Positions 5,313 through 64,000 of a stretch of 64,000 nucleotides of DNA are shown one piece after another. Source of the DNA: Butyrivibrio sp. AC2005 (GTDB lineage Bacteria; Bacillota; Clostridia; Lachnospirales; Lachnospiraceae); NCBI RefSeq assembly GCF_000424145.1, contig NZ_AUJI01000009.1, forward strand, positions 124,001 through 188,000, in the 5' to 3' direction. Positions within the stretch are counted from its first letter, which is position 1. Each line of letters starts with the position of its first letter. The notes beneath the pieces were generated by a model. The model searched no databases, had not been told where the DNA came from, and saw only the letters and a list, made by a program, of their open reading frames with translations. The position numbers were made by a program, and so were the translations under genes.

Positions 5313-7298
5313 ATGAGGGGAAATAAAATAAGAAAGGTTTTTAATATTATGAAAAAATGCTATAGGGCAGCTGAATTGTCAGCTGTAAAGGTTACTGACA
5401 AGTACTACGACGAGGCGCTTTGCATCGAAATTAAGAATATGCTTCTGCTTGATGCTGACAGGCTTCTTGCAGGGTTCAGGGAGACGGCAGGACTTCTTGC
5501 GGGTAAGAGCGAAGAGGAACTGGTCAGCCTAATGAAGGGAAAAAGACGTTATGGAGGAGACTGGGAGGATGGTCTCATCGGAGGGCATACTCTTGGGCAT
5601 TACATCACTGCTTTGGCGCAGGCTGTTGCCAGCCCTGCGCTCTCTGAAGAGGATAAGAAAAGTGTTTTAGACAGATTGGACTATATGCTTTCTGCACTGA
5701 AGGAGTGTCAGGAACTTACAAAAGGAACAGACGAAGAAGGCTTTATATTCGGAGCAGCATTTCCTTCAAAAGCATTCAGAGATAATCCGGTTCTTCAGTT
5801 TGATAATGTGGAGAAGGGGCTTAGCCAGCCCTTTGAAGAGGCGTGGGTACCGTGGTACACAATGCACAAGATTCTTTCAGGTTTAAACGCATCATTTAAG
5901 CTTGCGGGGAAGGAGCTTGGACTTGATGTGGCAAATTCTCTTGGGATGTGGATTGCAGACAGGGCACTTTCCTGGTCAGAGGAGGTTAATAAAACAGTTC
6001 TTTCTATAGAGTATGGCGGAATGAATGACTGTCTTTACGAACTCTATCAGATTAATGAATGCTTGAAGAAAAGTGGCAGCAGCTTGTATCATCCTGAATT
6101 TGAGAAGATAAAGGAAGCTGCTCACAGATTTGATGAAACTGAGCTTTTTGAAAAAGTACTCGCAGGAGAGAAAAATACCTTAAACAATTTTCATGCAAAT
6201 ACTACTATTCCCAAGTTCATCGGAGCCCTTGCGCGATATGAGACCGATAAAAACGAGGTCAAATATCTGGAGTATGCAGAGAGCTTCTGGGATATGGTGT
6301 TATCAAAGCACACCTATGTTACCGGTGGAAACAGTGAGGATGAGCACTTCGGTGAAGACAATATCCTGGATGCTGAGAGAACTAACGTAAATAACGAAAC
6401 CTGCAACACTTATAATATGCTGAAGTTTTCAAGAAGGCTTTTTGCGGTGACAGGGAAAAAGAAATATCTTGATTATGCGGAGAGGACGCTTGTAAATGCC
6501 ATTATGGCATCCCAGAATCATGAGACGGGATTTTCAACTTATTTTCAACCTATGGCGACAGGTTTTCAGAAGGTGTTTAACACACTTGACGGGAATTTCT
6601 GGTGCTGTACAGGAACGGGCTATGAGAACTTTACAAAGCTCCAGGACGGTATATATTTTGGCAGAGAAGACGAGATAATTATTGCGCTGTATCTGGCTTC
6701 TGAGTACTGTACAGAGGACTTCAGTATTTCCATAGATGCTGATTTTACAAAGTCGGATGAAGTGAAAATATGTGTTAAACCTGTGGCAGGGAAGGAAGTT
6801 GAAAAGGATCTCCTTTTGAGAAAACCAACCTGGGTAATGGGAGAGCCTGAGATTAAGGTGGGAGAAGATGAGATTTCTCCTGAGGAACAAGATGGTTTTT
6901 ATATAATTCCAAAGAAGACTGTTAAGAATGGCTGCAACATTTTCTTGAAGCTTCCTATGGGAATTACCTGCCATAATCTTCAGGATGGAGCTGACACCTA
7001 TGCTTTCATGTATGGACCATATGTACTCTCTGCACGACTTGGAGTAGCTAAGATGAAGACAAAAGGACACGGAATCGCTGTTGTGGTTGCTGCAGAAAAA
7101 GCTGTAGAGTCAGATGAAGTTCTTGTTACTAAAGAGAAATCAGTTCAGGATTTTATTGAGAATATAGATAAGTATCTTGTGAAGAGGGAAGGCGAGATGG
7201 AATTTGATCTTGCAGGCACAGATAGGAATCTTAACTTTACAACACATTATAATCAGTACAGTGAGAGCTATGGTATTTACTGGAAGTTCAAGGCTTGA
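5313..7298 (+). CDS. GH127-type beta-L-arabinofuranosidase
   Basis: Predicted cytoplasmic glycoside hydrolase (DUF1680/GH127 or the related GH146), 661 aa, that removes beta-L-arabinofuranose. Family blocks seen: GGDWEDGLIGGHTLGHYI, WVPWYTMHKILSGL, TYVTGGNSEDEHFGE, NNETCNTYNMLKFSRRLF and NFWCCTGTGYENF. Known enzymes of the family bind zinc through a Glu-x-Cys pair and a Cys-Cys pair, one Cys being the nucleophile; here these are E362/C364 and C431/C432. No signal peptide is present, so the substrate must be imported, matching the upstream ABC genes. The start is uncertain: ATG 5313 abuts the permease stop, ATG 5349 follows AGAAAGG. Substrate specificity beyond beta-arabinofuranose is not visible. 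Confidence 0.88.
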   Translation: MRGNKIRKVFNIMKKCYRAAELSAVKVTDKYYDEALCIEIKNMLLLDADRLLAGFRETAGLLAGKSEEELVSLMKGKRRYGGDWEDGLIGGHTLGHYITALAQAVASPALSEEDKKSVLDRLDYMLSALKECQELTKGTDEEGFIFGAAFPSKAFRDNPVLQFDNVEKGLSQPFEEAWVPWYTMHKILSGLNASFKLAGKELGLDVANSLGMWIADRALSWSEEVNKTVLSIEYGGMNDCLYELYQINECLKKSGSSLYHPEFEKIKEAAHRFDETELFEKVLAGEKNTLNNFHANTTIPKFIGALARYETDKNEVKYLEYAESFWDMVLSKHTYVTGGNSEDEHFGEDNILDAERTNVNNETCNTYNMLKFSRRLFAVTGKKKYLDYAERTLVNAIMASQNHETGFSTYFQPMATGFQKVFNTLDGNFWCCTGTGYENFTKLQDGIYFGREDEIIIALYLASEYCTEDFSISIDADFTKSDEVKICVKPVAGKEVEKDLLLRKPTWVMGEPEIKVGEDEISPEEQDGFYIIPKKTVKNGCNIFLKLPMGITCHNLQDGADTYAFMYGPYVLSARLGVAKMKTKGHGIAVVVAAEKAVESDEVLVTKEKSVQDFIENIDKYLVKREGEMEFDLAGTDRNLNFTTHYNQYSESYGIYWKFKA

Positions 7299-54055: not shown

Positions 54056-55579
54056 ATGAAAACAACCGCGCATCGTGTAAAGTTCATATTATATGTGGTA
54101 CTAATGCTCATAAGTCTCTTCCTTGGCGGAGTTGCAATCGCCTACAGATGGGAGATTTTGTGGGTTCTGTTCTTTACGCTCCTTTTTGCCCTTTTCCTTG
54201 TGCTCGCAGGATACGTATATATGTCGAGCCAGAGAGACTCTGCTTACGATGTCTTAAGGAAGCAAAAGCTCCATGACGAGGAAGATGCCAGAAGACGTAT
54301 GGAATACTTTGCCAACATGTCTCACGAAATCAGAACACCCATAAATGCGATTCTCGGATACGATGAACTCATACTCAGAGAGTACAATGATCCTGCGCTC
54401 AGGCAGTATGCTTATAACATTCGTTCTGCCGGAAATACCCTGCTCTCACTCATCAATGATTCACTTGATTATTCCAGAATTGAAGCGGGCAAGATGGAAC
54501 TGTTCCCCACTGAATATGATTTGAGTGTGGTTATAGAGGATATGATGAGCCTTATCCGCCCCAGAGCACTGGCGAAGGGACTTGACCTCAAGGGGTATGT
54601 TAATGAAAATATCCCCCGCAGACTATATGGCGATGCGGAAAGACTAAAGCAGTGTATAGCAAATATTCTCACCAATGCTGTGAAATATACCGAAGAGGGT
54701 GAGATAGATTTTTCTGTTGATTATGAAAAAATAGAATCCAAGGCCGGAAGCGATGGTGAGGAGATAATTCTCAAGGTGGCCGTAAGAGATACCGGTATAG
54801 GAATTAAAAAAGAAGATTTGCAGCGTCTTTACAAACCTTTTGAGAGAATCGAAGAAGATAAGATAAAGACCATAGAGGGAAGCGGACTTGGAATATCCAT
54901 AGTAAGACAGATTCTTGCTCTTATGGATTCAGAGCTAAAGGTTGAAAGTATCTACGGTGAAGGAAGTAATTTCCATTTTTCAATAAAGCAAAAGGTAGTG
55001 GGGAGTGAGCCTATCGGAGACTTTGAGCAGAGTTATGCCAGAAGCGTAATGGATAAGAATCACTTCAAGATCAGTTTTACAGCACCGGATGCCAGAGTGC
55101 TTATTGTTGATGATGCAGAATTAAATCTGGCAGTTATGGAGAGCCTTCTCAACGGCACAGGAATTCAGGTGGATTCAGCCCTTTCTGCTACAACGGGGCT
55201 TGAGCTTGCAACGGGGAATAAGTATGACATGATTTTTATCGACCTTTTGATGCCCGGAATGAGCGGTGAAGAAATGACCACAATGCTTAAAAATACAGAT
55301 GGTATTAATTCGGATACAACCTGTATCGCACTTACTGCCGGCTCACGTCAGGAAGTAAGGAGTGTATATAAAAAGCAGGGCTTTACGGACTATCTCCTTA
55401 AACCTGTTGTGTTTAAAGAGATTGAGGCCATACTTCTAAGGTATCTTCCGGATGAGAAGATTAAGAAAAAAAGCTCATCTTCAAATAAGAGGAAAAAGGC
55501 AGGAATTCCGATTCTTGCAACGGAGGAGAAGCTTCAGGAAGCATATAAGATTTTGTCTCAGAGGGAGTCTTTGAATTGA
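54056..55579 (+). CDS. Hybrid sensor histidine kinase (TM-HisKA-HATPase-REC)
   Basis: Membrane kinase, 507 aa. Two helices (residues ~9-30 and 35-55) leave almost no outer domain. HisKA: MSHEIRTPINAILGYDELI with H90. HATPase: N box QCIANILTNAVKYTEEG, G1 RDTGIGIKKEDL, G2 GSGLGISIVRQIL. REC at ~345-460: LIVDDAELN, phospho-acceptor D396 in FIDLLMPGMSG, Lys in LLKPV. It is the only protein of this cluster with an ATP-binding kinase domain, so it may phosphorylate the neighbours. Its stop overlaps the next start. The start follows the REP-like element that provides GAGGGG, closely spaced at 2 nt. Confidence 0.9.
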   Translation: MKTTAHRVKFILYVVLMLISLFLGGVAIAYRWEILWVLFFTLLFALFLVLAGYVYMSSQRDSAYDVLRKQKLHDEEDARRRMEYFANMSHEIRTPINAILGYDELILREYNDPALRQYAYNIRSAGNTLLSLINDSLDYSRIEAGKMELFPTEYDLSVVIEDMMSLIRPRALAKGLDLKGYVNENIPRRLYGDAERLKQCIANILTNAVKYTEEGEIDFSVDYEKIESKAGSDGEEIILKVAVRDTGIGIKKEDLQRLYKPFERIEEDKIKTIEGSGLGISIVRQILALMDSELKVESIYGEGSNFHFSIKQKVVGSEPIGDFEQSYARSVMDKNHFKISFTAPDARVLIVDDAELNLAVMESLLNGTGIQVDSALSATTGLELATGNKYDMIFIDLLMPGMSGEEMTTMLKNTDGINSDTTCIALTAGSRQEVRSVYKKQGFTDYLLKPVVFKEIEAILLRYLPDEKIKKKSSSSNKRKKAGIPILATEEKLQEAYKILSQRESLN

Positions 55580-57393
55580 TTCTTAAGTACAATATTTTTC
55601 TTGAACTGGCGGTGATACCGCTGGACTTTATATTGTTTGTGTTCTTCCTTTTGCGCTACAAGGACAACACAAGAGTTAACAGGGAGTTTAAACTCTTTTC
55701 TTTTCTTGTGCTCTGCGGAACGGTTCTCGATGTTATAAATGCAATTGCCATAAGCCTTGGAAATGTGGTGCCTGTTTTTCCGAGATATCTTTTGAACACG
55801 CTAAATTACGTATCCGCAACCTTTGGTGCCTTTCAGTTTGTGAGATATGTTATTTCCTATGTCGGCGAGCAGTACAACAGAACCACAGGTGCTTTCATTA
55901 ACCGCGTGCTTCTGGGGATTTATGCGCTTATTATGTTCCAGAATATATTTTTTGGAACAGTTTTTTCATACCTTCCAAACGGTGACCTGGCAACAGGGCC
56001 GCTGTTTATGATGGTTGTTTATGCATATCCGCTTTACTACATTATGTGCGGAGGTGTATTTATTCTAAGTCACAGTGAGAGCTACGCCAGAAACATGAAA
56101 TATGCCCTTGCTGTGACCTTTTCATTTGTTGTGATTCTTTATGGCGTTCAGATGTTTTTCTATCAAAATCTCCTGGTTACGTTTTTTGTTGCCTCCCTTG
56201 CAATGCTTGTAATGTTCCTGACTCTGGAGACACCGGACTATGCACAGCTTAGACGTACTCTCGAGGAACTGTCTGTTTCCAAAAGGGAGCTTGAGGCGTC
56301 AAGTATTAGAGCGACCGAAGCAAGTCATGCCAAGTCAAGGTTCCTTGCGCAGATGTCCAATGATATCAGAACTCCTGTTAATGCGATTATGGGATATTCC
56401 AATCTGATTCTTGCGGATACAGAGGAGGAGTCTACCAAGGAGTATACGAGACGAGTTAAGATTTCAGCAAAACGCCTTCTTACATTCTTTGAGAACGTCC
56501 TTAATTATGTGTCGGAGGAAGCAGATGAAAACGGTCCAAGGCGTCTTCCTTCCATGGCGGAGCTGATAGAGAGAACGGATGAAAATGAATTCCTTGATTC
56601 CGATGGAAATTCTGAGAGGTCGGAAATTATCGGCGCATCCGAGATGAGAATTCTGGTTGTGGATGATACACCTATGAATCTTGATCTTATGGTGAGAATG
56701 CTGACACCAATGGGATTTACTGTAGATACAGCGGCTAATGGGCAGCAGGCGGTTATGCAGGTAAGGAAATTCCGATATGATCTCATTTTTATGGATCATC
56801 TGATGCCTGTTATGGACGGTGTTGAAGCATTAAAACAGCTTAGAGATGAACAGCTCTGTGACAATACTCCGGTTATCATGCTTACGGCCAATGCCATAGC
56901 AGGTCAGGATGAGGAGTATTTGAACAAAGGCTTTGCGGCATATCTCACAAAGCCCTTTACCGAGGATATGGTGCTTGATATTCTGAAGCAGTTTTTATCA
57001 GGAAAAGGGAAAATGCTAAGTGGCGAGATGGAGCTTAGCGCATGGGAGAGCCTCCAGGAAAAACTACCCATGGTCAGAGTGGCTGATTCCAGAGAATATC
57101 TGCTTCATGATATTAAACTTTATAAAAAGATACTGGAAATATACGCAAAAGAAGATGTCAGCTCAGAACTTTCAGCAGCCATAAGGCATGGTGATTATGA
57201 AGAGAGCCTCGCGAGAATAAGATCAGAGCGCGACAAGGCAATGCTTATAGGCGCTGAGAACTTGGTGAAAATCGCAGACAAGCTTGAGAACTTGTGCCAA
57301 AAGAAGGAATTCGAGCTTTTACGCGAGAGAATAGGCGCGTTTGTATCAGAGAGAGACGCACTGTCTGAGGCCATAAATAAGGGGATAGTGTGA
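55576..57393 (+). CDS. 7TM receptor with degenerate HisKA, REC and degenerate Hpt
   Basis: 605 aa, TTG start overlapping the previous stop, GAGGGAG upstream. Residues ~1-215 give seven or so helices. A coiled linker leads to MSNDIRTPVNAIMGYSNLI, a HisKA H-box in which His is replaced by Asn (N262). No HATPase domain follows; after ~90 residues comes an intact REC (LVVDDTPMN, D407 in FMDHLMPVMDG, Thr in MLTAN, Lys in LTKPF). The C-terminal ~100 residues align with the Hpt domain of the protein at 57915, but Arg549 stands at the phospho-His position (IRSERDKAMLIGAENL). It can accept phosphate only on REC. A sensing pseudo-kinase or phosphate sink is likely. Confidence 0.85.
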   Translation: MILKYNIFLELAVIPLDFILFVFFLLRYKDNTRVNREFKLFSFLVLCGTVLDVINAIAISLGNVVPVFPRYLLNTLNYVSATFGAFQFVRYVISYVGEQYNRTTGAFINRVLLGIYALIMFQNIFFGTVFSYLPNGDLATGPLFMMVVYAYPLYYIMCGGVFILSHSESYARNMKYALAVTFSFVVILYGVQMFFYQNLLVTFFVASLAMLVMFLTLETPDYAQLRRTLEELSVSKRELEASSIRATEASHAKSRFLAQMSNDIRTPVNAIMGYSNLILADTEEESTKEYTRRVKISAKRLLTFFENVLNYVSEEADENGPRRLPSMAELIERTDENEFLDSDGNSERSEIIGASEMRILVVDDTPMNLDLMVRMLTPMGFTVDTAANGQQAVMQVRKFRYDLIFMDHLMPVMDGVEALKQLRDEQLCDNTPVIMLTANAIAGQDEEYLNKGFAAYLTKPFTEDMVLDILKQFLSGKGKMLSGEMELSAWESLQEKLPMVRVADSREYLLHDIKLYKKILEIYAKEDVSSELSAAIRHGDYEESLARIRSERDKAMLIGAENLVKIADKLENLCQKKEFELLRERIGAFVSERDALSEAINKGIV

Positions 57394-57404
57394 GGTGAAA
57401 TGAA

Positions 57405-57773
57405 TTGAGTAAGAAATTATTGGTAGTAGATGATTCCGAGACGGAGAGATTTTTTATATCGGAGCTTGCTAAAAAAATAGAAGACGTGGAAATTGATGAT
57501 GCAGCCGGCTTTTCGGAAGCAAAAGTGAAGCTTGCCGAGAAAAAATATGACCTGATACTCATTGATTCCTACATGCTTGAAGGAACCGGTGCTGAGCTAA
57601 GACGCATTATCTTGGAGGAAAATCCCGGAGGAAATGCCGAGACAGCCGCCATCGTTATGGGCCATGAATCTGATTTTGAGGACGGATACCTAAAAGAGAA
57701 CGGCTTCATAAATTATCTCGAAAAACCTATTGAATTCAATATGCTTAAGGCAGCAATCTCGCTGTACACATAA
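57405..57773 (+). CDS. Stand-alone receiver (CheY-like) protein
   Basis: Single REC domain, 122 aa: LLVVDDSETERFF with the acidic pair, phospho-acceptor Asp in LILIDSYMLEG, and Lys in YLEKPIEF. The Thr/Ser that normally ends strand 4 is not evident (AAIVMGHES), so its activated state may differ. It lacks an output domain, suggesting a shuttle in a relay between the neighbouring HisKA/REC/Hpt proteins. TTG 57405 follows GAGGTG by 7 nt. Confidence 0.85.
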   Translation: MSKKLLVVDDSETERFFISELAKKIEDVEIDDAAGFSEAKVKLAEKKYDLILIDSYMLEGTGAELRRIILEENPGGNAETAAIVMGHESDFEDGYLKENGFINYLEKPIEFNMLKAAISLYT

Positions 57774-57782
57774 TATTTACCG

Positions 57783-57800
57783 TTAAGGTAATTACCTTAA
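57783..57800. repeat. 18-bp perfect palindrome
   Basis: TTAAGGTAATTACCTTAA is its own complement. It lies 10 nt after the receiver stop codon and before the hairpin repeats. It could be an operator or mark a transcript end; no T-run follows. Confidence 0.7.
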
Positions 57801-57812
57801 AGAGTAATGAAT

Positions 57813-57911
57813 AAAGCAATCTTTTGAAGAGAATAATTAAAGTAATCTTTCGGAGAGAAATAAATAAAGCCTTCCCCTTGGGGGGAAGGTGCCCGTAGGG
57901 CGGATGAGGGG
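57813..57911 (+). repeat. decayed hairpin units followed by a REP-like element
   Basis: Two units of ~26 nt start AAAGCAATCTTTT (57813) and AAAGTAATCTTTC (57839); a third (57866) begins AAAGCCTTCCCC and is an intact REP-like element: CCTTCCCC-TTGG-GGGGAAGG, GCCC-GTA-GGGC, then GGATGAGGGG ending at 57911. GAGGGG is 3 nt before ATG 57915. The layout repeats that at 53811-54053. Confidence 0.8.
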
Positions 57912-57914
57912 AAC

Positions 57915-60395
57915 ATGCTTCTACACAATTTATCATTCGGACTGTCTGCAATCCTGTACGACATCTTAATCTGCATATTCTTAACCATGACATATACAGA
58001 CTCTTCCCAGACCACAAAGGCCTTCAGAAGGTTTGCATACTGTCTCATGGCAGCGACTGTGATAGATACTGCAACCGTAGCAACAGAAATGTACGCCGGT
58101 ATGGTACCTGTTGCAGGCCATTACATCATGCATTCATTAAATATTCTTTCGGCAACTGTTGCAGCCAATTCCTACGCAGAATACATAGTTGCAGCAGCCA
58201 AGGTGGATATAAAGGAAACGCTTCTTTATAAAATCAACCTGGCCGTCATAATCACTCAATGCTTTATGATGGTTCAGAACGTATACACCGGAAATGTATT
58301 CATATGCATGGAGGATGGAACCTACATTACAGGCATGATGTTCCTTGCATGCTCGCTGCTTCTTCCCTGCTACTATATCCTGCTTGCTACAGGATTTGTA
58401 GTCGTAAACCGGAAGGGATATACAATTCTGCAGCTGTTTAGCATTGCTGTGGCCACACTGATGGTTATTGTGATGTATATGGTCCAGATGCTGTGGCTTA
58501 AGAATGTTATGCTGATATTCTTTGCTGCTTCGGTAGCGCTTATTATCCTGCTGTTCACGCTGGAAACACCTGATTATCACAGACTTGAAAAGACAATCGG
58601 TAAGCTCGAATCTGCTCAGAAGGAAGCTTCGGAAGCAAGAAAAAGGGCAGAGGAAGCAAATGAAGCAAAGAATGATTTCCTATCCCAGATGTCACATGAA
58701 ATAAGAACACCCATTAATTCGATTCTCGGATTTGATAACCTGATTTTGGAAAATACCAACGATGCGAGGATTTCTGAGTATGCATCAAAAATAAAGGGTG
58801 CAGGGGAGACACTTCTTGCATTTTTCAATAACCTCCTTAATCTGATCGCACAGGACCCGGGGGAGGATGTTGATGTCAGCAAGTTTTTTGATTATTCGGC
58901 ACTGCTGGATACGGACATTGATGAAACTATCGTGCCTATAATGCCCAAGGCTCAGGTTCTTGTAGTAGATGATAATGCAATGAATGTGGACCTTATTTTG
59001 AAAATCCTGAATAAGACAGAAGCACAGATCGATACTGCGGTAGATGGGCAGAAGGCTCTCATGAAACTAAGGAAAAAGACCTATGATCTTGTGGTTATGG
59101 ATCATATGATGCCAATAATGGACGGCGTAGAGACGCTGAGCATAATGAGAGAGGAACGCCTTAGCAAGGATGCACCTGTTATCATGCTGACTGCAGGTGG
59201 ACTAAGAGGCGATGAGGAACGCTTTAAGGAGCTTGGATTTGATGCATACCTGACCAAGCCTGTTGTGGCTGACAAGCTCTATAGTCTTCTTATTGATATA
59301 ATGCCCTCTAATCTGATAGAGCAGAGAGCATCTCTTGAGCATCTTTTTTACATGGAAAAGGAGAAGACGTCCAGGATACAGGAGACTCCTGCATCCGATA
59401 AGCCTGTACAGCCGGTGGTGCCATCTAAAAAGGATATGGCAAGTGTTTTCCCTGAGCTCAATGTGGAGAACGGACTTAATTTCTGTATGGGAGATGAGGA
59501 TTTTTATATATCCCAAATACAGATGTTTGCTGAGAGTAATAAGGGAGAAGAGCTGTCGGAGTTTCTCAAAAATGATGATTTCGAAGCTTATCTTATCTCC
59601 GTGCATTCCTTAAAGAGCACGGCTAAGACCATAGGCGCAGACATGCTTTCAGAAGAGGCACTGGCGCTTGAAGATGCAATTAAGGAAGGAAAAACTGAGG
59701 CTGTTCGTGAAGGACATCCTGCCCTCTTTGAGCATTTTAATAAATTAAGTGAGGAGCTACTGGATGGAATTAAGGAATATACTCAGGAAGAGCAGATAGA
59801 TACTGAGGATATTGCAAGGCAGCAGGGTATGGGGACAGGGCTTCCTGCGCAGATACTTCTTGCCCTGGCAAATACCGTTGATTCCAGAGACATAAACAAC
59901 CCAGGCAGATCCATGAGGGTTGCAAAATACTCCTCAGAGCTTGCAAGGAGACTTGGTAAAAACGAAAGCGAGCAGCAAAATATTTACTACATGGGACTTG
60001 TGCACGATATAGGAAAACTCATTATTCCTGAAAAAATTTTGAGAAAACCCGATAGACTTACTGAGGATGAGGCTGAGATTGTAAGGCAGCATCCTATAAT
60101 CGGTTATGAAATCCTGAGGAATATATCAGAGATGCCTGGACTTGCCACGGGTGCAAGATGGCATCATGAAAGGTATGATGGTACCGGTTATCCCGACGGT
60201 CTTGCAGGCGAGGAGATTCCTGTTGAAGCCAGGATTATCGGAATTGCCGATGCTTATGATGCCATGACTTCTGAGAGGCCTTATGCGCCTGTTATGCCAC
60301 CTATGCGCATAAAACAAGAGCTCGAAAAAAACCGCGGAAAGCAGTTTGATCCGGCTCTTGTGGATGTACTTATTTCTATGATTGATGAAGCTTAA
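57915..60395 (+). CDS. 7TM-HisKA-REC-Hpt-HD-GYP signalling protein
   Basis: 826 aa. About seven helices (residues 1-215) precede MSHEIRTPINSILGFDNLI, a HisKA H-box with H261. There is no HATPase; REC follows (LVVDDNAMN, D396 in VMDHMMPIMDG, Thr in MLTAG, Lys in LTKPV). An Hpt domain has H564 in ISVHSLKSTAKTIGA. The C-terminus is a complete HD-GYP phosphodiesterase: H697/D698 in VHDIGKLIIPEKIL, HHERYDGTGYPDGL and IADAYDAMTSERPY, which degrades c-di-GMP. Phosphate must come from another kinase, probably that at 54056. The ribosome site lies in the REP-like element. A full-length paralog of the protein at 55576 plus the HD-GYP output. Confidence 0.88.
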   Translation: MLLHNLSFGLSAILYDILICIFLTMTYTDSSQTTKAFRRFAYCLMAATVIDTATVATEMYAGMVPVAGHYIMHSLNILSATVAANSYAEYIVAAAKVDIKETLLYKINLAVIITQCFMMVQNVYTGNVFICMEDGTYITGMMFLACSLLLPCYYILLATGFVVVNRKGYTILQLFSIAVATLMVIVMYMVQMLWLKNVMLIFFAASVALIILLFTLETPDYHRLEKTIGKLESAQKEASEARKRAEEANEAKNDFLSQMSHEIRTPINSILGFDNLILENTNDARISEYASKIKGAGETLLAFFNNLLNLIAQDPGEDVDVSKFFDYSALLDTDIDETIVPIMPKAQVLVVDDNAMNVDLILKILNKTEAQIDTAVDGQKALMKLRKKTYDLVVMDHMMPIMDGVETLSIMREERLSKDAPVIMLTAGGLRGDEERFKELGFDAYLTKPVVADKLYSLLIDIMPSNLIEQRASLEHLFYMEKEKTSRIQETPASDKPVQPVVPSKKDMASVFPELNVENGLNFCMGDEDFYISQIQMFAESNKGEELSEFLKNDDFEAYLISVHSLKSTAKTIGADMLSEEALALEDAIKEGKTEAVREGHPALFEHFNKLSEELLDGIKEYTQEEQIDTEDIARQQGMGTGLPAQILLALANTVDSRDINNPGRSMRVAKYSSELARRLGKNESEQQNIYYMGLVHDIGKLIIPEKILRKPDRLTEDEAEIVRQHPIIGYEILRNISEMPGLATGARWHHERYDGTGYPDGLAGEEIPVEARIIGIADAYDAMTSERPYAPVMPPMRIKQELEKNRGKQFDPALVDVLISMIDEA

Positions 60396-60416
60396 GTAAA
60401 ATAATACGATGAAGGA

Positions 60417-61136
60417 TCAGAGATTTTTCATGGTGTACTCTGACAACATCCTGTTTGCTTCTGCAAGGCTCTCTCTTCGGATGTGGACAGTGTCACCATC
60501 CTTCATCTTAAATATCTGAAGACCTCTGTCTACGCATTTTGCGTGGGCAAGATTTACCAGATAGCTCTGGTGACATCTAAGGAAAGAATCATCCGGCGTC
60601 TGGGCTTCGATGTTATCGAGCTTACCGGTAAGCTGAAGAGTTGCGCCATTAGCCATGTGCATGTACAGGGTATGTGAACTCTGCTCGACATAGCATATTT
60701 TTTCAAATGAAAAGGTCATGTCTTTTCCGTTTATTCTTACGGTAACACCGCCCTGAGTGCCCTTCATCTGGGCTGCAAGCTCCAATACTTCGCCCACCTC
60801 AACGGGATCAAAGGGCTTCATCAGATATCTGATTACCCTGTTTTTATATCCCTCCATCGCATGATCCTTACTGGAGGTCGCAAAAACTATAGGTACGGAA
60901 GCGTCGATGTTCCTGATCTTGCCTGTGGCATCAATACCGCCCATACCGGGCATTAGAATATCCATGAAAATGAGATCATATAATCCGGGACGGAAGGCAT
61001 TTAAAAAATCCTCTCCGGACTCGAAAAGATTGACTTCTGTGCCGGGACGACTCTTGTCGATAATGAATTGAAGCTGACGCCTCTGAGTCATCTCGTCATC
61101 GCATATTGCAACTTTCAAAATGTCTGAACCAGCCAT
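60417..61136 (-). CDS. LytTR family response regulator
   Basis: 239 aa. REC: VAICDDEMTQRRQL, phospho-acceptor Asp in LIFMDILMPGMGG, Lys in RYLMKPFDP. The LytTR DNA-binding domain follows (MTFSFEKICYVEQSSHTLYMHM, LDNIEAQTPDDSFLRCHQSYLVNLAHA). GAGGGG lies 7 nt before ATG. It is convergent with the HD-GYP gene (21-nt gap, no terminator seen) and divergent from the Ig-like/cyclase operon, whose promoter carries a 42-nt dyad with TGTTCAT half-sites that could be its target. No AgrC/LytS-type kinase is adjacent; the hybrid kinase at 54056 is a possible partner. Confidence 0.9.
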   Translation of the reverse strand: MAGSDILKVAICDDEMTQRRQLQFIIDKSRPGTEVNLFESGEDFLNAFRPGLYDLIFMDILMPGMGGIDATGKIRNIDASVPIVFATSSKDHAMEGYKNRVIRYLMKPFDPVEVGEVLELAAQMKGTQGGVTVRINGKDMTFSFEKICYVEQSSHTLYMHMANGATLQLTGKLDNIEAQTPDDSFLRCHQSYLVNLAHAKCVDRGLQIFKMKDGDTVHIRRESLAEANRMLSEYTMKNL

Positions 61137-61217
61137 GGTTTTACCCCTCGAAAATTTATATTTCTATCATATCACAAAAACGGAAGATTTTGATACCCCG
61201 TATCACAATTATTACGT

Positions 61218-61288
61218 TTGTCAAGTACGAATTATGAACAAAACTGTTCATATTCCGTAATATTTTATCCATAAAAAGCCGATATAAT
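61218..61288 (+). promoter_or_regulatory. dyad operator and -10 box, copy 1
   Basis: TTGTCAAG leads into TACGAATTATGAA (61227-61239), N7, TTCATATTCCGTA (61247-61259). TATAAT follows at 61283-61288, 23 nt after the dyad, with no good -35. The same arrangement occurs at 63722-63792. Placement at the -35 region suggests an activator site. Confidence 0.75.
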
Positions 61289-61352
61289 AATATGCGTAAC
61301 TTTATGTTCGGAAGTCCTGAATAAAGTTTTGGACGGAAGGTGATGGGGAGAT

Positions 61353-61991
61353 ATGAGACAATACAGTTTGGGCAACAGACTAATCACGTATCTGTGTTTT
61401 TTGTATGCCATTTGCGTGATTATTCTGTCCCCTTGCTGCGGTATAGGAACCAAGGCACAGCTTGTATACCGCAACAAGGTGATTTTTACAGCGCCGAGTG
61501 CAGAGAAATTATTTGATGGCACTCCACTGACAGAGCAGATTGATGTGACTGCACAGGGCCTGCCTGAAGGCTTTACTTACAAGGCAGTTGCTGAAGGAAG
61601 CGTAACTTATCCTGAGGATAATGCGGAGAATAACAATATTGTTACTGATTATGTGATTTATGATCCCAGCGGACTTAATGTGACAGAGAAATTTGTTAAC
61701 GTAGAGCTCCGCCCCGGTACACTCAGAATAAGCGAAAAAGAAGCAGTCCTCGGAGCCAAGAGAGATGAGGATGGTGAAGAGGTAGATACATCAGAAGAAG
61801 TAGAAGAGTCTACAGATGATTCAAATATTGGAGAAACTGTAGAAATAAATGATGAAAATACTGCGAAATCTGATAAAATAAAAAAGAATGATACTTCATT
61901 AGAATTGATTCTGTACAGCTTCTTGATAATAATTATGCTTGCTGTCTTTGTTATTTTCATGATGGATAGCAATAAAATGAGGGAAAAATGA
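61353..61991 (+). CDS. membrane-anchored protein with one Ig-like repeat
   Basis: 212 aa. An N-terminal hydrophobic segment (LITYLCFLYAICVIILSP) acts as signal or anchor. Residues ~45-130 form one copy of a surface repeat domain: KLFDGTPLTEQIDVTAQGLPEGFTYKAVAEGSVT and following, ending VELRPGTLRIS, the pattern of Ig-like repeats seen in large Lachnospiraceae surface proteins. An acidic Ser/Thr/Glu linker and a C-terminal helix (LILYSFLIIIMLAVFVIFMM) follow. The domain would sit outside the cell between two anchors. GAAGGTGATGGGGAG precedes ATG. Its stop overlaps the cyclase start by 4 nt, so the two are made together. Function unknown. Confidence 0.75.
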   Translation: MRQYSLGNRLITYLCFLYAICVIILSPCCGIGTKAQLVYRNKVIFTAPSAEKLFDGTPLTEQIDVTAQGLPEGFTYKAVAEGSVTYPEDNAENNNIVTDYVIYDPSGLNVTEKFVNVELRPGTLRISEKEAVLGAKRDEDGEEVDTSEEVEESTDDSNIGETVEINDENTAKSDKIKKNDTSLELILYSFLIIIMLAVFVIFMMDSNKMREK

Positions 61992-63628
61992 AATCTATTC
62001 AGGAAAAGATAACCCTGCTTACGACAATAGCTATCCTAATGGTTGCTGCTATTGTCGGTGGGACAGCTGTTTTGACCCTCAGGCAGGCAGGAGATTATGA
62101 TTCAGCTCAGATACTTAATCTTACCTGTCAGACTGAGACTAATTTAATCGATAGGAATCTGTTAGACACAGAGGAAGCCGTCAATATTCTTGCCGACTAT
62201 GCAGTTGAGCGTCTTTTTTCAGTTGAAAAGCTTGCAAACGATGATACCTACAGAGATAGCTACACCGTGCAGCTTGCCAATCTTTTTTCAAATATAGCAG
62301 AGAATGTTCCCGGTACAGTTTCATATTATGTGAGATATAATCCGGAGATTATGCCATCTGACAGTGGCCTTTTTTACAGGAGAGATACGCTGGAGGATGA
62401 GTTCTTTTTTGAACAGCCTACAGATATAAAGAAATTTGCGGCAGATGATATAGAGCATGTTGGCTGGTGGTATATTCCCGTTCAGCATAGTGAGCCTACA
62501 TGGATGGAGCCGTATCACAATGCAAATATAGATAAGGATCTTATTTCTTATATAGTTCCTCTCTATGAAAACGGAGTACTGATCGGTATTGCCGGAATGG
62601 ACATTGATTTCCATGAACTGGTAGATCGTGTAAAAGCCATAAAATGTTATGATACCGGTTATGCATGTCTTGCAAATGATCAGGGTGAGGTATATTACAA
62701 TCCGCATTACGAAGCAGGCGTAGCCATGGAAGAGATGGATATGTCAGGGGATCTATCCTTCGAAAGTGAGAGTAATGGAGACACTCCTTTATCCTACACA
62801 CTTGCATCGGTAGAAAAGATGCTTTCATACAGAACGCTGTCAAATGGAATGCGACTTATCATAACAGCTCCGAAGAGCGAGATTATGTACATGAGTAACA
62901 GACTCATGAGAAGAGTAATAGTTTCTACTATAATAGTACTGTTCACATTCCTTTTCCTTACTATAATGGTAAGCCGCAGAATTACAGATCCTCTTAAGAG
63001 ACTGGCTCATGTGGCTCGCGAGATCAACGATGGTAAGCTGGAAGTAGAGTTCCCTAAGGAGACCAAGGATGAGGTCGGAGATCTTACTCATGCGATGGAG
63101 AAGATGGTTCATCACTTAAAGCACCATATCGATGATCTGAACTCACTTGCATATCATGATTCTCTTACGGGAGTTAAAAACAAGACTGCATATGACGATG
63201 CTGCATCAAGGCTTGATATGCAGGAAGGTGAGAAGGAATATGGCATAGTTGTATTTGATGCTAATAACCTCAAGAAGATTAACGATACCTACGGACATGA
63301 GCGTGGAAATATTTATCTTCAGAATGCATGTCGCCTGACCTGTAGGATATTTAAAGGAAGCCCGGTATTTAGAATCGGCGGAGATGAATTTGTGGTCATA
63401 CTCCAGGGCGATGATTACGATAACTGCTACAAGCTTCTCAGAGACTTCGATGTTGAGGCTGAACGCCATAACTTAGAGACTGAGAATGAATGGGAAAAGA
63501 TAAACATTGCAAAGGGCATGGTCAAGTATGATCCTGAAACCGATGCAAATGTGGAATCAGTTTTCAAACGGGCTGACGCAAGAATGTATGTTGCAAAGCA
63601 GAAAATGAAACTGGCAGAGATGGTATGA
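61988..63628 (+). CDS. Cache-HAMP-GGDEF diguanylate cyclase
   Basis: 546 aa. N-terminal helix, then an outer dCache-like sensor (residues ~35-300; GWWYIPVQHSEPTWMEPYHN, GIAGMDIDFHELV), second helix (VIVSTIIVLFTFLFLTIMV), HAMP (RRITDPLKRLAHVAREINDG) and a GGDEF domain with FRIGGDEFVVIL at residues 464-468. The active-site motif is intact, so synthesis of c-di-GMP is expected. The RxxD inhibitory site normally 5 residues before the motif is absent. It opposes the HD-GYP enzyme encoded 2 kb upstream. Coupled to the Ig-like membrane protein, which may belong to its sensing. Confidence 0.9.
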   Translation: MKSIQEKITLLTTIAILMVAAIVGGTAVLTLRQAGDYDSAQILNLTCQTETNLIDRNLLDTEEAVNILADYAVERLFSVEKLANDDTYRDSYTVQLANLFSNIAENVPGTVSYYVRYNPEIMPSDSGLFYRRDTLEDEFFFEQPTDIKKFAADDIEHVGWWYIPVQHSEPTWMEPYHNANIDKDLISYIVPLYENGVLIGIAGMDIDFHELVDRVKAIKCYDTGYACLANDQGEVYYNPHYEAGVAMEEMDMSGDLSFESESNGDTPLSYTLASVEKMLSYRTLSNGMRLIITAPKSEIMYMSNRLMRRVIVSTIIVLFTFLFLTIMVSRRITDPLKRLAHVAREINDGKLEVEFPKETKDEVGDLTHAMEKMVHHLKHHIDDLNSLAYHDSLTGVKNKTAYDDAASRLDMQEGEKEYGIVVFDANNLKKINDTYGHERGNIYLQNACRLTCRIFKGSPVFRIGGDEFVVILQGDDYDNCYKLLRDFDVEAERHNLETENEWEKINIAKGMVKYDPETDANVESVFKRADARMYVAKQKMKLAEMV

Positions 63629-63646
63629 TTGAAAATTCACTAAAGG

Positions 63647-63683
63647 GCACCCTAAAGACTATATCTTGTGGGTGCTTTTTTTT
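63647..63683 (+). terminator. rho-independent terminator after the cyclase gene
   Basis: GCACCC (63647-63652) pairs with GGGTGC (63670-63675), AAGA/TCTT in the loop adds pairs, and eight T follow. Confidence 0.8.
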
Positions 63684-63721
63684 GACCACAAGAGACGAAG
63701 AAAAATCACAGATTATTCTAG

Positions 63722-63792
63722 TTGTCAAGTACGGAATATGAACAGATTCATTCATATTTCGTATCTTGAGGGAAGTAATAATTTTGTATAAT
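63722..63792 (+). promoter_or_regulatory. dyad operator and -10 box, copy 2
   Basis: TTGTCAAG leads into TACGGAATATGAA (63731-63743), N7, TTCATATTTCGTA (63751-63763). TATAAT is at 63787-63792. All distances equal those of copy 1 at 61218-61288. The two arms of this copy are complements apart from one base. Confidence 0.75.
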
Positions 63793-63847
63793 TTATCTGT
63801 GAAGTTTTGATTAAAATATATAAATTTTTTTTTGAAGGGGGAAGACT

Positions 63848-64000
63848 ATGCATAAGACTATCGCGAGAAAACTTGCGATTCTTCTGACACTTGTGGTATT
63901 GGTTACGACCTGCGGCGCAGATTATAACAGTATACCGGTTAGTGCTACTTCAGAAGAAGCAATTCCGAATCCGGATGAGCAAGTTTCACAATCCACAGAA
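63848..64000 (+). CDS. exported protein, N-terminal part (runs off the window)
   Basis: ATG 63848 after AGGGGG opens 51 codons to the window edge. The first ~33 residues are a signal peptide (KLAILLTLVVLVTTC); the start of the mature part is rich in Ser/Glu/Pro/Gln. Cys at the end of VTTC resembles but does not match a lipobox well. It shares the dyad promoter with the Ig-like/cyclase operon. A large surface protein is likely, but nothing beyond the signal peptide is visible. Confidence 0.75.
   Translation, partial: MHKTIARKLAILLTLVVLVTTCGADYNSIPVSATSEEAIPNPDEQVSQSTE

Follow-up and report, generated by a model that had tools for sequence, protein, structure and literature searches.

What do two inverted repeats, each set at the same distance from a TATAAT word, do beside a divergently transcribed gene for a LytTR response regulator? 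The question arises in a 64,000-nucleotide (nt) stretch of the Butyrivibrio sp. AC2005 genome (contig NZ_AUJI01000009.1, positions 124,001 to 188,000; hereafter the window), in which site 1 spans 61218-61288 and site 2 spans 63722-63792. The original prediction, made from the letters of the window, was that the two copies define a small regulon. We consider it likely, with good confidence, that the two dyads are operators of activator-dependent promoters that would serve a surface-gene regulon, and that the adjoining LytTR response regulator binds them.

Sites at a fixed distance from TATAAT

Both window copies, read directly, share the layout TTGTCAAG, 13-nt arm, 8 nt, inverted 13-nt arm, 23 nt, TATAAT. 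The identical spacing to TATAAT that had been claimed for them is thus 23 nt in each case, the predicted common offset of 29 nt from the start of TTGTCAAG to the start of the right arm recurs in both, and the arm centres, placed at about 20-21 nt in the original prediction, lie 21 nt apart in both. With up to three mismatches, the dyad occurs at these two places only in the window (four matches, both strands counted) versus none in each of 100 dinucleotide shuffles. A sigma-70 scan listed neither promoter, which is as expected for sites without a -35 box.

The genome-wide search proposed with the original prediction was carried out on the own genome (5.13 Mb, 74 contigs), a genus set of 79 Butyrivibrio genomes and a family set of 397 genomes. 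A pattern built from both copies found four places in the own genome and slightly wider patterns found six; reversed-pattern controls found none in either case. At three mismatches or fewer the dyad is present in 12 of the 79 Butyrivibrio genomes, and the reversed control is absent from all 79. The longer pattern GTCAAG-dyad-N23-TATAMT, at the same tolerance, has 79 places in the same 12 genomes (one sequence of genome G014 being counted on two contigs) and none in the other 67, and the full Butyrivibrio pattern occurs in a single genome of the family set, the own genome. A position weight matrix (PWM; score >30) gave 82 sites in 74 loci fetched around sites from the 12 carriers, with six in the own genome and two to 12 in the other carriers. 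The regulon is therefore not one of two promoters only, and its description as a regulon of surface genes is favoured. Sites are mostly intergenic: 78 of the 82 have no overlap of 21 nt or more with any open reading frame (ORF) of at least 100 amino acids (aa), and four overlap one. Random occurrence or placement within coding sequence, named beforehand as the outcome that would speak against a regulon, is thus not what was found.

Promoter geometry was measured on 59 sites selected by the dyad alone, both window copies included. Their consensus layout is GTCAAG-TACGAATTATGAA-N8-TTCATAWTYCGTA-N23-TATAAT. TATAAT with at most one mismatch stands at an offset of exactly 23 in 53 of the 59; across other offsets the best count is eight and the mean 1.2. 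GTCAAG, both arms and the -10 element are conserved in the column profile, and most columns between and outside them stay close to background; recent copying of a single stretch therefore does not account for the sites. A G is preferred 7 nt 3' of the -10 element (31/59), which fits a transcription start; by hand count, the arm centres would lie near -63 and -42 relative to that predicted start. A CAYRAAA box about 20 nt upstream of the dyad is much weaker than the dyad itself (C in 42/59 at column -23, A in 42/59 at column -22). The poor -35 boxes of the original prediction proved general: TTGACA-like hexamers with up to two mismatches occur in 2, 3, 0 and 0 of the 59 sites at spacers of 15, 16, 17 and 18, and a weak one at spacer 19 in 16 of 59. 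A -35 box is thus absent at canonical spacing, and the anatomy is that expected of an activator-dependent promoter at which the dyad-binding protein would activate.

The first genes behind the sites appear mostly exported. A first gene of at least 100 aa was assigned to 73 of the 82 sites, with the nine unassigned sites excluded from the ratio; 67 of these 73 have an N-terminal hydrophobic segment versus 120 of 271 other ORFs of at least 150 aa in the same loci, an excess whose Fisher p of 1.4e-14 is overstated because targets of different genomes are often homologous and the 67 are not independent.

The LytTR regulator and the dyad

The divergent LytTR gene that was said to border copy 1 does so, at 60417-61136 on the minus strand, 81 nt away. 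Its membership of the LytTR family rests on Pfam (PF04397, E 5.3e-15, 55.9 bits versus a cut-off of 22.6), which also finds a receiver domain (PF00072, Response_reg, E 3.1e-20). The phosphoacceptor site is intact, with D14, D59, T87 and K107, which we take to be the residues of that site, invariant in eight aligned sequences. The original prediction had arrived at this protein through the likeness of TGTTCAT in the arms to LytTR half-sites. That argument is weak: TGTTCAT is present in copy 1 and copy 2 has CATTCAT, and the operators described in the available text of PMC6193735 and PMC2766830 are direct repeats. The gene itself is nevertheless favoured as the likely regulator by two other lines of evidence, one within Butyrivibrio and one outside it.

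Within the genus, a close LytTR orthologue (74-87% identity in the 11 others) is found in exactly the 12 site-bearing genomes of the 79, and a site adjoins the gene in 12 of 12 carriers, strong in ten and degenerate in G018 and G076. An apparent internal TAA that would have broken the G076 regulator was rejected: the L082 coordinates and a 237-codon open translation show a normal stop. The phylogenetic profile was dropped as independent proof of a LytTR role, because by rpoB the carriers look like one clade and the diguanylate cyclase behind site 1 has the same pattern; the test was therefore moved outside the genus.

In the family set, the regulator is matched at 148-187 bits and 33-39% identity by 14 LytTR genes, from 13 genomes that represent 13 other genera; these genes outscore every in-genus paralogue (at most 103 bits). 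They were searched with a 20-nt half-site matrix trained on Butyrivibrio sites only, at a score of at least 12 within 350 nt upstream. A left half-site lies upstream of seven of the 14 and upstream of none of 20 in-genus LytTR paralogues (one with only 206 nt upstream); with the near-identical three among the seven (G145 twice, G335) counted once, it is present at five of 12 distinct loci. Such scores are reached by two of 436 other windows of the same loci and by one of 1377 windows of unrelated loci. The G147 locus (L194) looked half-site-like by eye, scored below threshold and was counted as a miss. In a tree of 45 rows, which includes 11 of the 12 Butyrivibrio orthologues, the Butyrivibrio rows, the distant rows and one paralogue row join with support 100/98, and half-site carriers fall in several sub-branches (long branches flagged). 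The G146 site has both arms, with TATAAT 24 nt on, and faces the LytTR gene itself. In G371 the half-site is oriented towards a divergent gene for an LRR_5 protein, and Butyrivibrio sites, too, precede members of this class. Of five distant half-site loci examined, three (G285, G371, G343) have a GHKL kinase gene after the LytTR gene. Diverged half-sites with two mismatches occur in ten of the 13 genomes with distant relatives; the reversed control also matches in five of 13, so single matches of this kind are not all real. By eye, the right end resembles TCGTACTGG in those of G285, G145 and G335, and a word similar to TATAAT follows after 24-25 nt.

Some of these distant loci deserve description in their own right. 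Three G285 loci (L212, L224, L226) carry more half-sites, with a right end like TNGTACTGG and TATAAT or TAAAAT 24-25 nt on, and the ORF behind L224 resembles the ORF beside the G145 and G335 LytTR genes (both by eye). L199, L201 and L202 (G145 twice, G335) are near-identical LytTR loci with a half-site in two genera, and within L199 an ORF resembling a site-specific recombinase by eye lies nearby. The G145/G335-type regulator may travel on a mobile element.

Several observations weigh against LytTR-bound operators of a surface-gene regulon. The degenerate LytTR-adjacent sites of two carriers score 24.9 and 21.0 by PWM versus 46.5-75.5 for the other ten. The co-distribution of regulator and sites in 12 of 79 genomes is confounded, because the carriers look like one clade and the cyclase is distributed alike: rpoB of the ten carriers with a full match is 96-100% identical to the own rpoB, and 48 non-carriers match at 92% or less (21 genomes gave no match, two of them the carriers G058 and G076). 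Outside the genus, a half-site is lacking from the 350 nt upstream of the other seven of the 14 distant LytTR genes, and the G371 site has a poor right arm and no TATAAT at the expected place. The GHKL kinase of G371 has no full-length match in the 12 carriers (partial or none, E 1e-15); a near full-length match occurs in one non-carrier, G053. The Butyrivibrio arms are inverted, versus the direct repeats of classical LytTR operators, and the homology of many targets weakens the count of exported first genes.

If the regulon and its promoters are real and another clade-specific transcription factor is the binder, the LytTR gene would be simply an inherited neighbour of site 1. Since the carriers look like one clade, any clade-specific regulator would be distributed alike; the LytTR, exported-protein and cyclase genes are inherited as one block, and LytTR operators do not usually have inverted arms. 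We nevertheless consider this unlikely, as LytTR relatives in other genera, whose neighbours differ, again have the half-site upstream (five of 12 distinct loci; neighbours of five loci examined) and none of the 20 in-genus paralogues does. A LytTR protein that binds the dyad as a repressor, with activation coming from elsewhere, has little chance of being the right account. Between the end of the dyad and the -10 element lie 23 nt, unaided initiation would have no canonical -35 box, and repression would not require a single fixed distance between site and -10; a site next to the protein's own gene could, on the other hand, also serve negative feedback.

The idea that the dyads act not as operators for a protein but as a dispersed repeat element or an RNA hairpin is barely credible. 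Conservation does not extend to the flanks or to the 23-nt spacer, a transcript from the -10 element would not include the dyad, which lies upstream of that element, and no Rfam family reaches its gathering score in window positions 60300-64000; the sole match listed there, itself below gathering (E 0.89), is located away from the dyads. This holds even though each site is an imperfect palindrome with dispersed copies, the own-genome site C25:46784 is followed downstream by a T run, and arm complementarity within a site averages 10.54 of 13 versus 10.36 for swapped arms, with 92 of 2000 swaps reaching 10.54. Operators bound by the adjoining LytTR response regulator remain the likely explanation.

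Target genes and neighbours of the regulator

The features of the window are collected in the table. The diguanylate cyclase placed after copy 1 (61988-63628) was confirmed by Pfam, and its orthologues at 65-86% identity are found in the 11 other carriers, with none so close in the other 67 genomes. The label 'Ig-like' for the gene before it (61353-61991) finds no backing, as no Pfam or NCBIfam family matches at E 0.001. The exported protein said to follow copy 2 is the giant repeat protein that begins at 63848. A run of ten N at L005:4182-4191, inside a repeat, interrupts its gene and so splits what is probably one protein into two listed ORFs. A GCACCC...GGGTGC stem with a T run, seen by eye near 63645-63683 between the cyclase gene and site 2, is absent from the sigma-70 scan listing.

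Coordinates of the two sites and adjoining genes within the window
Feature	Position	Strand	Remark
LytTR response regulator (REC + LytTR), 239 aa, likely dyad-binding regulator	60417..61136	-	Pfam; binding predicted
CAYRAAA-type upstream box, site 1, possible third half-site	61203..61209	+	1 nt off consensus position
TTGTCAAG, conserved left extension, site 1	61218..61225	+	GTCAAG columns kept in 57-59/59 sites
34-nt dyad, site 1: TACGAATTATGAA-N8-TTCATATTCCGTA	61226..61259	+	PWM score 75.5
TATAAT, predicted -10 element, site 1, 23 nt 3' of dyad	61283..61288	+	
First gene, site-1 operon: 212 aa, hydrophobic N and C termini	61353..61991	+	no Pfam/NCBIfam match
Second gene, site-1 operon: PDC/Cache-HAMP-GGDEF diguanylate cyclase	61988..63628	+	Pfam
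TTGTCAAG, left extension, site 2	63722..63729	+	
34-nt dyad, site 2: TACGGAATATGAA-N8-TTCATATTTCGTA	63730..63763	+	PWM score 65.8
TATAAT, predicted -10 element, site 2, 23 nt 3' of dyad	63787..63792	+	
Site-2 gene: start of giant exported protein, Listeria-Bacteroides repeats	63848..64000	+	continues past window, L005:3849-10044

The four other own-genome sites also precede genes for predicted surface or exported-type proteins. Site C25:46784 stands before an ORF with an exported-type start and an LRR_5 (BspA-type) protein. Site C1:686006 precedes a signal peptidase I gene that heads a sortase-pilus cluster, with a 1821-aa FctA/Cna_B/MucBP protein and a 462-aa pilin-backbone protein, each with an LPXTG anchor; farther along the same strand are a Cna_B protein and a sortase (L035:6824-8017 and 6050-6691), the interval C1:677035-677999 between the cluster parts lying outside the fetched sequence. 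Site C1:673042, the weakest (score 42.2), precedes an exported-type protein of at least 1306 aa, and site C2:98645 a 96-aa exported-type protein, both without a Pfam match. In B. proteoclasticus B316, a cluster of a signal peptidase, three LPxTG proteins and two sortases has been described as pilus-like, and the operator is not mentioned in the available part of that genome account (PMC2914790).

Target classes that recur among the carriers were judged by eye from N-terminal sequence, with Pfam run on own-genome members only. They are a protein of about 205-250 aa that precedes a diguanylate cyclase, a giant protein with a SDYNSIGVRA-like signal region, the pilus-cluster signal peptidase (11 of 12 genomes, not G024), an exported protein of about 95-110 aa (eight of 12 carriers) and BspA-like proteins. 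The 95-110-aa protein bears a C-terminal membrane segment, and its own-genome copy (L036:3649-3939) has no Pfam or NCBIfam match. In G066, a variant site with GTCAAC (C62:16828-16896) stands before an ORF whose start resembles, by eye, that of an extracytoplasmic function (ECF)-type sigma factor.

On its other side, the LytTR gene adjoins a run of signalling genes (54056-60395). The first (54056-55579) is HisKA-HATPase-REC and 57405-57773 is a stand-alone receiver; 55576-57393 and 57915-60395 are HisKA-REC proteins for which Pfam lists no HATPase at E 0.001, and the latter also carries Hpt and HD_5 domains. Together these genes, adjacent to that of the LytTR protein, may encode a phosphorelay that includes kinase-dead partners, and by position only the hybrid-kinase cluster is a candidate partner of the regulator.

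In the mechanism that we propose, a phosphorylated LytTR dimer would sit on both arms, on one face of the helix, and would recruit RNA polymerase and hold it at promoters that have no canonical -35 box. Joint activation would take in repeat proteins, the sortase-pilus cluster and the diguanylate cyclase; since a Cache-HAMP-GGDEF protein is encoded in the operon next to the regulator, surface display and cyclic di-GMP (c-di-GMP) would rise together. More broadly, and tentatively, since we place it slightly below an even chance, a Lachnospiraceae LytTR subfamily may read a head-to-head operator of two 13-nt inverted arms plus GTCAAG, possibly with a third upstream half-site, that replaces the -35 box at an invariant distance. 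An orphan regulator could thereby switch an adhesive coat of repeat proteins, sortase pili and BspA-like proteins along with a diguanylate cyclase, and couple surface display to c-di-GMP in Butyrivibrio. For the display of surface proteins and pili by Butyrivibrio, the analysis puts forward a likely regulator, an operator of invariant layout and a list of targets from 12 genomes. The conserved geometry is also suited to asking how LytTR-type regulators replace the -35 contact.

Comparison with known LytTR systems

Among the publications that literature searches listed on LytTR (inverted or palindromic sites included), Butyrivibrio (sortases and pili included) and Lachnospiraceae topics, no title or abstract opening describes this operator; the same searches, in non-subscription literature, likewise found no description of the control of Butyrivibrio surface-protein or pilus display. 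The nearest counterparts are LytTR systems of other organisms, and the inverted LytTR sites met in these searches are those of HigX and AlgR. HigX, a transmembrane LytTR factor of Caulobacter, is similar in having an inverted-repeat motif and envelope genes among its targets, and differs in that its motif is 8+8 bp without a spacer and that four predicted transmembrane helices precede its LytTR domain, according to the available text (PMC13384398). AlgR, a LytTR-family regulator, also has sites in inverted orientation at algD; there the sites are parted by a large segment rather than a fixed 8-nt spacer, according to the title of Mohr 1992.

The Butyrivibrio regulator departs from those of the LytTR regulatory systems (LRS) HdrRM and BrsRM in its REC domain. 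To our knowledge, LRS regulators are without one. The gene that follows the LytTR gene (57915-60395) is convergent, so the regulator operon holds no membrane-inhibitor gene of the LRS type, and the dyad takes the place of direct repeats. Like HdrRM and BrsRM, the Butyrivibrio system combines a LytTR regulator with a site before its own locus; in LRS operons the LytTR direct repeats lie just upstream of the -35 box, as stated in the text available (PMC6193735).

Likenesses are also found with AgrA and SilA, beside which ComE is a further LytTR response regulator with a 9-bp direct-repeat operator. All pair a REC + LytTR protein with an operator upstream of a poor core promoter. The Butyrivibrio half-site centres are 21 bp apart, the value that 9-bp repeats with a 12-bp spacer also give, and they retain the classical position upstream of the core promoter. 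AgrA promoters likewise have a -35/-10 spacing other than 17, with 18 and 20 nt at P2 and P3 in the accessible text (PMC4227749). Unlike in AgrA and SilA, the Butyrivibrio arms are inverted, longer (13 nt), flanked by GTCAAG on one side and closer to the -10 element. Nor does the regulator have a kinase gene as its neighbour in the window: no GHKL kinase gene adjoins the LytTR gene there, so an AgrAC-type pair is absent. LytTR regulators bind 9-bp direct repeats with a 12-bp spacer according to the available part of PMC2766830; here, instead of two such repeats about 12 bp apart, 8 nt separate inverted 13-nt arms, and by eye no direct repeat is conserved in the column profile of the 59 sites. 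If the adjoining protein does bind these dyads, the description of LytTR operators as direct repeats would be challenged by a head-to-head arrangement that keeps the classical half-site spacing.

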